Virus record (IMG/VR): IMGVR_UViG_3300017714_000171
Span: 1-23,849 of that record
Reading direction: 5' to 3' (one strand)
DNA from: a virus
DNA: 23,849 bases
Below are positions 1 through 4,488 of the stretch, piece by piece. Each line of letters starts with the position of its first letter. Positions within the stretch are counted from its first letter, which is position 1. The notes under the pieces were generated by a model, which worked only from the letters and a program-made list of their open reading frames with translations, did no database searches and was not told the DNA's origin. The position numbers and the translations under genes were made by a program.

Positions 1-1484
1 GTCCAATTTCTGAATGTCATTGTACCTTTTAAATTAGCTTCAGCTTCAATATCATTTAAATAATCATCTTCTTGTGTATTAGTTGTAGTAATATTACCTA
101 ATCTACCCTCTAGATTTTGAATATGATGAATCATCTCATGTGCAAATGAACGTACAATATCCTTGGGATGTCTGCCTTCAGTGTATAGCACGATTGTTTG
201 TGTTTCCGGGTTATAATACGCTGTTTTACCGAGGAATTCACGTGCATTTTCACTATCACCATCAACAAATTCAACTGTAGGTAAAGGTTCTATATTGTAC
301 CCTTTATCTAACATATGTTGGGTTAATTGCATTATTCTACCCTTAATATCTATATCTTTAGAATATGAAGCATTTTCATTTAAATTATCTAAATTATATG
401 AAGTTTGGATTAAATGTCCTGCACCTAATTTTTTTAGCAAATTAGATAAATTACCAAATGATATACCTGATTCTTCCATTGCATCCCTAAAGCTAATATC
501 TCCATTTATAATTCTTTTAGCATATCCTAATGGTGAAAAATCTTCTTCCTTTAATTCATTATATCCTGAACCATAAGGGGCAGCTTTACCATCTTCGGGA
601 TCATTTTCTTCTAAAAATGCTGTAGGGGTAACTATATTACTTAATTTAATTAATTTAAGTAAAAGTAAAACTAATGAACCTGCGGGGATTGCAAATATTG
701 CGGCTCCAAATACTCCTTTAAGAATATCTTTAAGTTGTTCTTTAATTTGTTGTTTATCTAAATCAGTAAGTTCTATTTCACCTTTAGCAGCTTTAACTAA
801 AAGGCTAAATGCATCTTTTGTTTCTTTACCTTCTTGTTTTAATTTTTCAAGAAATATTTTAAATTTTTTCTTAATATCAGATACATTAGGAAGTTTTAAT
901 TCATTGATAACACTTGATACCATTTGAATTATTTCTTCTTTTTCAGAATCTGTTAGTTGTTTTGGGAAATAAGTAATAAATTCTTCATTATTACCTGATA
1001 AGGCTGCTTTACGGGCCATTGTCCCACTTACACCCCCAGTAGTTTGAACTCTAACTGGGATAGCTTTTTTACTATATTTTTTAGCATATGTACTACGTTC
1101 AGCTACATCTTTATCATCTTCTTCATTATCGGGACGAGCACCTATAAAGATATAAACATCTTCATCTTGATGATCTTGTAAATATGTTTTAATATAAGAA
1201 AATGGGGATTGTACTTTAATAATTTGAGTAGAAACAGGAATTATTTTTTTATACATTTCCCAAATTTTAACTGCTTCTTCTTGTGTAATACCATTTCGTT
1301 CACCACTACCTACAAGGATTTGAACTTGTTTTACTTGGGGGTTTTCTTTAAGACCTTGTAAAACTACTTCAAGATGTCCTTTTGTTGGAGGTTTAAAACC
1401 ACCCCCAAATAAAGCTACAGTATCTAAAGATTCATCACCTTCATTAAGAATGCCATCTACTAAATATTTAGTTAATTGATTCAT
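1..1484 (-). CDS. Nucleotidyltransferase / LETM1-like / HExxH metallopeptidase fusion protein (3'-truncated by window edge)
   Basis: I translated this by hand from the ATG at 1484-1482; the frame stays open for 494 codons to base 1, so the C-terminus is missing. Residues about 21-165 look like a cytidylyltransferase-type nucleotidyltransferase (NMN adenylyltransferase superfamily): GGFKPPTKGH at 28-37 matches the FxPxHxGH nucleotide-binding loop, with T in place of the first His, and SGTMARKAL-like residues at 153-162 match the second ISSTxxR motif. Residues about 200-295 (long helix, then KDILKGVFG, IPAGS, LLLLKLI and TPTAF) resemble the LETM1 ribosome-binding-like domain, including a hydrophobic segment at 261-279. 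Residues about 400-494 carry HEMIHH (449-454), a zincin HExxH, and E480 in DIEAEA as likely third zinc ligand. The start overlaps the kinase stop (TAATG), so the two are coupled. The N-terminal helix ends in LNE (13-15). The nucleotidyltransferase and zincin assignments are firm at superfamily level; LETM1 is moderate; substrates are unknown. Confidence 0.8.
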   Translation of the reverse strand, partial: MNQLTKYLVDGILNEGDESLDTVALFGGGFKPPTKGHLEVVLQGLKENPQVKQVQILVGSGERNGITQEEAVKIWEMYKKIIPVSTQIIKVQSPFSYIKTYLQDHQDEDVYIFIGARPDNEEDDKDVAERSTYAKKYSKKAIPVRVQTTGGVSGTMARKAALSGNNEEFITYFPKQLTDSEKEEIIQMVSSVINELKLPNVSDIKKKFKIFLEKLKQEGKETKDAFSLLVKAAKGEIELTDLDKQQIKEQLKDILKGVFGAAIFAIPAGSLVLLLLKLIKLSNIVTPTAFLEENDPEDGKAAPYGSGYNELKEEDFSPLGYAKRIINGDISFRDAMEESGISFGNLSNLLKKLGAGHLIQTSYNLDNLNENASYSKDIDIKGRIMQLTQHMLDKGYNIEPLPTVEFVDGDSENAREFLGKTAYYNPETQTIVLYTEGRHPKDIVRSFAHEMIHHIQNLEGRLGNITTTNTQEDDYLNDIEAEANLKGTMTFRNW

Positions 1485-2281
1485 TATGAATTTAAAAATT
1501 GTGCTATTCGCATTTGTGCTTCATCTTTAGACATTGTATACTCAATTACATCGTATACAAAATCATCACTTAACATAGCTTGAATTTCTTTTTTATCTTG
1601 TGCATTTCGCTCATCTGATTTCTTCTGTTGAGCTGGAGTTTTAGGTTTTGTGTTTTTAGGTGAGAAAGGTTTGAGATATTTATCTATAATCTTATCTATA
1701 TCTTGCATCCTATCATCTAATGTATTAGCTACAGCAACGAAATTATTACCAAATAAATCAGCATATTTAGGTAAATTTTCAGTTACACCTTTCCAAGTAC
1801 GCATTACAATTGCAGGTGCTAAACTTCTATCTTCACCACCTGATTTTCTATATCTATCTTGGTTTTGGCTTAATGAACGTTGTAGATCAGTATAAACATA
1901 AAGCATAAATACATCGTATCCAGCTTCTTCAAGTTGAGATTTTAGTTCTGCTGTTTTATTATATGAAGCAGCTGTACCATCTAGGACAAAGGATTGTTTA
2001 CCATCTATTACACCTTGCAACTCACCTTTAAATTCTTTATTAGCTGCAGCCATTGCTTTAGCTTGTTCGCTTCTCTCTTCAGGTGTAGCATTTTTAAGAT
2101 CTAAAGTAACATTAGCTTGTTTAAGTTTATTAATAAATGTATTATCGATGTTTAGTACTTTTAAACCTTTAAGATCTAACCCACTTAAAATATATCCTTT
2201 ACCAGCTCCAGGGGCACCTGCTAATATGATTGCTTTAGGTTTACCTTGCACTTCATTTAATAATTGTACCAATGATATCAT
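1484..2281 (-). CDS. P-loop kinase, AAA_33/zeta-toxin-like
   Basis: This is a 265-aa P-loop NTPase. A Walker A motif, GAPGAGKG, sits at residues 22-29 after the strand AIILA, and FVLDGTAA further on fits a Walker B/hhhD strand as in zeta-toxin and polynucleotide-kinase-like phosphotransferases. A later basic stretch (QDRYRKSGGEDRS) fits the lid region with phosphate-binding arginines. The C-terminal ~50 residues are lysine-rich and charged. The first ten residues, before the kinase fold, form a short hydrophobic helix ending in LNE. It follows the exonuclease after 24 bp that contain a copy of the TAATATTTATAA motif, and its stop overlaps the next start. No antitoxin-like partner is beside it, so toxin-antitoxin function is unlikely; a phage kinase acting on nucleotides, sugars or nucleic-acid ends is equally possible. 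Kinase fold confident, substrate unknown. Confidence 0.75.
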   Translation of the reverse strand: MISLVQLLNEVQGKPKAIILAGAPGAGKGYILSGLDLKGLKVLNIDNTFINKLKQANVTLDLKNATPEERSEQAKAMAAANKEFKGELQGVIDGKQSFVLDGTAASYNKTAELKSQLEEAGYDVFMLYVYTDLQRSLSQNQDRYRKSGGEDRSLAPAIVMRTWKGVTENLPKYADLFGNNFVAVANTLDDRMQDIDKIIDKYLKPFSPKNTKPKTPAQQKKSDERNAQDKKEIQAMLSDDFVYDVIEYTMSKDEAQMRIAQFLNS

Positions 2282-4038: not shown

Positions 4039-4488
4039 TTAAACATCAAAGTCACGAGTGAAGAACTTTCCAAGAATATTATCATTAAAAAATTCTTCGG
4101 GTTTTTCTAAAACTTGATATATCATTTGATATTTTACTTCATAATATGTTAATAATTTTTTTGTGGGGGCACAAATTAAAATATGTCTATCAAAATTTTC
4201 TTTTGGTTCTGTTTCGTATAATTCTTTTAGATATTTATTTGAACCCCAATATGTTTTCCAATTTGATTCTTTAACTGCTAATTTATATGCAGGTCTACGT
4301 CCTACTACACCTTCGTATTCTTTAAGTTCTTTTTTGCCTAATTTTACTTTAGTAGTATTCTGAAGTATTTTTTTACCAATATAAGCTTTTTCTGTAGGTT
4401 TATGAGTTATCATATATACAAAGCCATAAGTTTCATCTGGAAAATCTGAAATATTTTCCATTATTAAGTTTTTATAAGTCCAATTCAT
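4039..4488 (-). CDS. GIY-YIG family nuclease
   Basis: A 149-aa protein with the GIY-YIG fold near its N-terminus: GFVYMI (22-27) supplies the GIY half and AYIGKK (35-40) the YIG half. R64/R65 in VGRRPAYK and E117 in TYYEVKYQ are the likely catalytic arginine and metal-binding glutamate. The C-terminal NDNILGKFF (136-143) resembles the ending of a family common in marine T4-like phages, as I recall it. It begins 1 bp after the stop of the preceding structural gene, so it is read with the virion block although it is an enzyme. I see no separate DNA-recognition domain such as NUMOD or zinc finger. It could be a free-standing homing endonuclease or a nuclease acting on host DNA or on phage junctions. 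An in-frame Met at residue 10 is a less likely start. Confidence 0.75.
   Translation of the reverse strand: MNWTYKNLIMENISDFPDETYGFVYMITHKPTEKAYIGKKILQNTTKVKLGKKELKEYEGVVGRRPAYKLAVKESNWKTYWGSNKYLKELYETEPKENFDRHILICAPTKKLLTYYEVKYQMIYQVLEKPEEFFNDNILGKFFTRDFDV

Follow-up and report, generated by a model that had tools for sequence, protein, structure and literature searches.

What kind of protein joins a nucleotidyltransferase, a LETM1-like segment and a zinc metallopeptidase (zincin) in one reading frame at the edge of a 23,849-nucleotide viral contig (IMG/VR record IMGVR_UViG_3300017714_000171; the whole of this stretch is referred to as the window)? The open reading frame (ORF), complement 3-1484, belongs to a phage of marine Bacteroidota and is a single frame of 494 residues that stays open up to the contig edge, where its C-terminus has been lost. 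It is read here, with a probability of about 0.68, as a head-targeted polyvalent internal protein of a T4-like Bacteroidota phage that would be cut by a gp21-type protease and injected in pieces. The reading draws on features that are directly observed: the domains, their shuffling among relatives, LxE motifs at the module joints, N-terminal tags in the T4 register, and protease and gp23 genes in related contigs. The ORF and the adjoining kinase gene are laid out as follows.

1440..1484, minus strand: N-terminal tag, residues 1-15 (MNQLTKYLVDGILNE then G); amphipathic helix ending LNE, a candidate capsid-targeting sequence with a candidate gp21-type cleavage site
900..1439, minus strand: adenylyltransferase, residues 16-195; CoaD/NMNAT fold, ends INE195
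606..899, minus strand: LETM1-related module, residues 196-293; matches NF040639, ends LEE293
546..605, minus strand: disordered linker NDPEDGKAAPYGSGYNELKE, residues 294-313; ends at candidate site LKE313
375..545, minus strand: short helical spacer, residues 314-370; ends at candidate site LNE370
3..374, minus strand: zincin metallopeptidase, residues 371-494; HEMIHH at 449-454 plus E480/E482, cut at the contig end
1484..2281, minus strand: zeta-toxin-like P-loop kinase (PF06414, E 1.6e-18); N-terminal tag at 2252-2281

The initial annotation, made from the sequence alone, had claimed a three-part fusion in one frame, and the 494-residue ORF and its collinear relatives bear this out. Two relatives, L001 and L002, share the order nucleotidyltransferase (NT) domain, LETM1-like module, zincin, with identities to the ORF of 44, 88 and 92% (L001) and 42, 86 and 92% (L002) across the three parts. 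An assembly chimera, raised in that annotation as a possible objection, is excluded by these collinear relatives. L002 lacks the spacer stretch, and its linker is joined straight to the zincin; no family match was found for the spacer. The linker string GKAAPYGSGY recurs in gp187, a small protein of Flavobacterium phage immuto that matches 21 proteins of the family. Structures were predicted with AlphaFold2, for the whole protein and for the LETM1-like module alone, and in the whole-protein model the predicted local distance difference test score (pLDDT) falls below 50 at residues 287-311 and 362-372. A 30-base probe used to look for the lost C-terminus matched 12 other contigs and did not identify the continuation of this one. 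Past the point of truncation, relatives carry a Zn-ribbon, a DPFGL... segment, a second zincin (HELEHLTQ) and/or a HAD phosphatase.

The architecture of the wider family is that of a shuffled series. Across ~90 non-redundant relatives the NT domain and the zincin (found in most of them) are kept, while the middle stretch and the part after the zincin vary. Modules found in relatives include HAD phosphatase, polyA polymerase, superoxide dismutase, plastocyanin-like, ART-PolyVal, Zn-ribbon and second zincin domains. Modules occur both within the polyprotein and as separate genes, which are often tagged (HAD: MIKLVDLLKE, MYKLTDLYKQIKE); most stand-alone HAD genes have a tag of their own. Such multi-domain proteins with disparate activities and shuffled architectures correspond to the polyvalent proteins, large phage proteins that join unrelated enzymatic domains around a zincin hub and are predicted to be co-injected with DNA (Iyer et al. 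2017, PMC5512222). The likeness extends to the shuffling of unrelated domains, the presence of a zincin and, in one relative, the Pfam ART-PolyVal domain. The difference is that here T4-like tags and LxE between modules point to cutting by a head protease. A text search of PMC5512222 returned neither LETM1 nor cytidylyltransferase. Two further observations concern the cargo: the superoxide dismutase and plastocyanin-like domains, carried by single relatives, are odd for a phage head protein, and an internal tag-like segment, KDPFGLNxYARELAxGL...LxE, stands ahead of the second zincin or the HAD domain in the C-terminal halves of family proteins such as L001, L008, L037 and L054, resembling an N-terminal tag that has been incorporated.

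The capsid-targeting sequence of T4 comprises 10 residues, of which positions 4 and 7 serve targeting and positions 8 and 10 cutting (PMC9026906). The candidate tag of the ORF forms a helix at residues 3-14 in the model and has hydrophobic residues at positions 4, 7 and 8 as in T4; it is a 15-residue variant in which position 10 is Asp and LNE occupies 13-15. The N-termini of T4 IPIII and Alt fit a pattern of hydrophobic residues at 4, 7 and 8 plus Glu10. Of 674 distinct N-termini, 72 show this pattern, versus 1.7 expected after shuffling; since homologous kinases make up many of these, the number of independent cases is the number of families. About six unrelated gene families are marked in this way, chiefly the kinase adjoining the ORF (1484-2281, minus strand), whose tag MISLVQLLNE, followed by V, stands in exact T4 register. 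The strict tag is present in 50 of the 60 members of the kinase family and in 8 members of the polyprotein family; it is missing from all 163 genes of the exonuclease, primase, phrog_447 and tail groups. Relatives have 62 distinct N-terminal extensions ahead of the NT domain, and [LIVMF]xE is present in every one. In T4, Alt and IPI-IPIII carry an N-terminal tag of ~10 residues, hydrophobic at 4, 7 and 8 with Glu10, and are cut by gp21 after LxE (PMC9026906). The kinase fits this tag exactly; the ORF family differs from Alt and the internal proteins, each a single functional unit, in joining several modules in a row, with internal sites. Since most members of its family bear the strict tag, the kinase may itself be injected. 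A second shared N-terminal tag, (N)FDLKKFLVENKLTxNSxLLxE, was noticed on several small proteins that differ in length and content (immuto (L082) genes 179, 194 and 195; L073:9888, L046:9408, L118 and L119).

The internal sites were assessed at the joints between modules. T4 gp21 cuts after L/I-x-E (PMC9026906). Joints were located blind to motifs, as the ends of local BLAST alignments between relatives (643 in 90 proteins), and 42% of them have an [LI]xE no more than 5 residues away, versus 13% of random positions. The control motifs [LI]xD, [LI]xK, [LI]x[NQ], [AG]xE and [KR]xE are not enriched at joints. When homologous joints are merged (121), [LI]xE is found at 32% versus 13% at random, and 0 of 300 random draws were as high. 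The joints of the ORF itself carry LNE15, INE195, LEE293, LKE313 and LNE370; LEE293, LKE313 and LNE370 lie in or near the two low-confidence linkers, LNE15 and INE195 lie at helix ends, and most LxE strings inside the domains fall within helices. In 14 of 19 internal clusters, a hydrophobic-x-E directly follows the LETM1-like ...PSAF, although the next module differs. Two LETM1-like copies that end a protein have no hydrophobic-x-E after them.

The same joints could arise in a packaged polyvalent protein that gp21 does not cut, the LxE strings being relics of gene fusion between modules that kept their own tags, or the built-in zincin doing the processing. Fusion of modules that exist as tagged separate genes would leave tags at the junctions, tag-like DPFGLN..ARELA segments do sit inside the protein, and Iyer et al. 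2017 (PMC5512222) put forward zincin autoprocessing for other polyvalent proteins. This account is nevertheless considered unlikely: LEE or LNE persists right after TPTAF although the module that follows varies, which argues for selection on the site, and other motifs show no similar enrichment.

Cutting in the head, as the preferred reading proposes, calls for a T4-type maturation protease. A gp21 homologue (PF03420) is encoded in 12 of the 14 related contigs tested, and gp23 in 11 of the 14. In the gp23 propeptides examined, the last residues are Q[LI][VLI]xE; LxE-like strings also stand close to both termini of most protease homologues, a feature discussed for T4 gp21. Immuto, which infects Flavobacterium sp. 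LMO8 and is the nearest cultured relative, is the sole cultured phage in the collection to match the ORF. The window runs primase, exonuclease, kinase, NT fusion; immuto runs primase, exonuclease, nucleotidyltransferase-like gene, NT fusion and HAD phosphatase, with terminase, portal, prohead protease and gp23 downstream. In immuto, an N-terminal LxE is present in 22 of 30 head-block genes versus 32 of 142 early genes (p 2e-7).

From these sequence features we infer packaging, cleavage, injection and an activity of each module in the cell. The N-terminal amphipathic tag would carry the polyprotein into the prohead core, in the manner of T4 Alt and the internal proteins. As the head matures, the gp21-type protease of the phage would cut the linkers behind their LxE sites and so set free the adenylyltransferase, a LETM1-like membrane peptide of ~98 residues, the zincin and further C-terminal modules. 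The released pieces would remain in the head and be injected along with the DNA. Inside the host cell, the adenylyltransferase would restore a dinucleotide cofactor of the NAD or CoA type, the LETM1-like peptide would lodge in the inner membrane, and the zincin would cleave proteins of the host or the phage. The multi-part effector proposed in the initial annotation comes near to this scheme, with one correction: a single multi-step enzyme is improbable for modules that are interchangeable and separated by candidate protease sites, and the LETM1-like piece and the zincin may therefore act as separate molecules. If the scheme is true, polyvalent injected proteins and T4 head proteolysis merge into one mechanism, in which a polyprotein is cut in the capsid into several injected enzymes, and the tag plus LxE become a simple rule for reading the injected proteome of uncultured T4-like phages.

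Several points weigh against this reading. LxE is a short motif, and 58-68% of the breakpoints have no [LI]xE nearby. Some relatives begin straight at the NT domain without a tag, and among stand-alone modules a HAD gene in L026/L028 and the LETM1-like ORF in L133 are likewise untagged. The protease and gp23 genes are absent from the window, a 24-kb fragment too short to contain the protease. The literature searched yielded neither mass-spectrometry nor virion data on these phages, immuto included.

The N-terminal enzyme is the best defined of the three modules. Residues 20-195 match phrog_3041 (E 3.7e-9) and, weakly, TIGR01510/PF01467; the motifs GGFKPPTKGH (28-37) and VSGTMAR (152-158, VSGTxxR) are present. 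The model of the domain, with pLDDT mostly >85, aligns with CoaD/PPAT (VIA Z 16.9, 153 residues, 2.5 A), Foldseek matches it to CoaD (E 4e-4), and CoaD, NadD and NMNAT structures are matched alike. A PDB sequence search with the whole 494-residue protein gave nothing useful. With its Rossmann-like fold, (G/S)xFxPxTxGH and ISSTxxR-type motif, the domain is, by sequence and predicted structure, a HIGH-superfamily adenylyltransferase of the CoaD/NMNAT type, and it likely adenylylates a cofactor. The phrog_3041 match and the structural match to CoaD thus confirm the nucleotidyltransferase first recognised from GGFKPPTKGH. The phage cytidyltransferases of phrog_3041 and phrog_395 share this domain with the ORF; the LETM1-like module that follows it is covered by no PHROG.

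Intact NT motifs on a CoaD/NMNAT fold would also suit an ordinary cytoplasmic enzyme made after infection, an NMN adenylyltransferase that serves NAD salvage and carries accessory domains; the immuto record indeed names a nicotinamide mononucleotide adenylyltransferase (annotation NadR). Such an enzyme would sit oddly with the constant swapping of unrelated modules, the head-type tags and the place of the gene in a late block that runs on to portal, protease and gp23, and this explanation is judged distinctly improbable.

The LETM1-like segment (~197-290) matches NCBIfam NF040639 with E 8.2e-9 in the whole protein and 6.6e-10 as an isolated segment, and the same model recognises 34 of the 36 phage copies aligned (best E 3.8e-16). 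Against Pfam PF07766, this copy scores E 1.1 (whole protein) or 0.084 (isolated segment, profile positions 2-38 of 229). PF07766 alone would thus reject LETM1; the relationship is recovered through NF040639 and bacterial intermediates. The module consists of two amphipathic helices, a hydrophobic stretch broken by PAGS (267-270; Kyte-Doolittle mean 2.4 over the 19 residues 258-276), TPTAF and then LEE293. Its isolated model has a pLDDT of 83.8; Foldseek gave no match to that model below E 1, and a PDB sequence search with the LETM1-like profile gave nothing useful.

Relatives of the module are encoded in bacteria. A scan of species genomes recovered Bacteroidota proteins of ~420 residues that end in it (e.g. 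...LLPSAFKDNEIEE; L137, L138 and L140), and NF040639 turned up at E <= 0.001 in 18 of the 148 genomes sampled from the phylum, 12 of them above its cut-off. LETM1-related proteins thus extend beyond mitochondria, from which the initial annotation took LETM1 domains to be mainly known. In two large bacterial relatives tested, PF07766 scores above cut-off, restricted to profile positions 1-54 of 229; the similarity therefore lies in the membrane-proximal part of LETM1 and does not reach the ribosome-binding domain. The phage copies have the membrane-proximal hydrophobic segment ending in (L/T)PSxF and lack the downstream ribosome-binding domain that makes up the rest of PF07766; after TPTAF, the proteins run on into unrelated modules. 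The segment's LETM1 relationship thus stood, via NF040639, and its supposed ribosome-binding domain did not. The NF040639 protein (LETM1-related biofilm-associated protein, Bacteroidota) aligns over the phage module with its C-terminal ~80 residues, ending LPSAF; it is ~400-430 residues long with a different N-terminal part, whereas the phage has the C-terminal module alone, in the middle of a polyprotein. Mitochondrial LETM1, an inner membrane cation/proton exchanger, shares the starting stretch of PF07766 via the bacterial relatives; unlike it, the phage module has no ribosome-binding (14-3-3-like) domain. A single multi-domain effector that docks on the ribosome or membrane through such a domain while the other two act is accordingly very improbable: the LETM1 relationship is real, but it covers 54 membrane-proximal positions of PF07766 with no ribosome-binding domain, the linkers are disordered and the modules exchangeable.

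The LETM1-like module is mobile. It was found at 54 viral loci (49 distinct copies), mostly directly after the NT domain, and also behind other NT domains (PGRFQPFGKHH; L102, L108 and L113), ahead of a ligase-like domain in L121 and L131 (identified by eye), in the 380-kb contig L125 and as a 105-residue stand-alone ORF (L133:3977-4294); two 735-kb uncultured phage records give a weak match (E 3e-5). Insertion of the piece in a membrane is plausible from its sequence. If the scheme of a cut and injected polyprotein is true, a LETM1-related membrane module has been brought into phages, of which no earlier report was found in the literature searched. That one piece of a head-protease-cut effector string acts as a free LETM1-like peptide, altering the host's inner-membrane ion or proton balance at the start of infection, is possible but doubtful. 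In L133 (3522-4294), a Zn-ribbon protein whose tail looks acetyltransferase-like by eye overlaps the LETM1-like ORF by four bases, and the gene after that ORF begins MANIKSFETFVNE. A stand-alone LETM1-like protein of 120 residues also lies amid chromosomal genes of a Bacteroidetes metagenome-assembled genome (L136:3917-4279).

The zincin (371-494) matches curated families weakly (DUF6782, E 0.014) and is absent from the listed structure matches of the whole model; it was not folded alone. Its HExxH and downstream Glu are both present, and H449, E450, H453, H454, E480 and E482 are invariant in all covering copies (~69 aligned), in agreement with the HEMIHH zincin of the initial annotation, with E480 or E482 as candidate third ligand. 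Elsewhere in the window, the gene at 4039-4488 (minus strand) matches phrog_447 ('NAD synthetase') together with homing-endonuclease PHROGs, and the phrog_447 label may be wrong.
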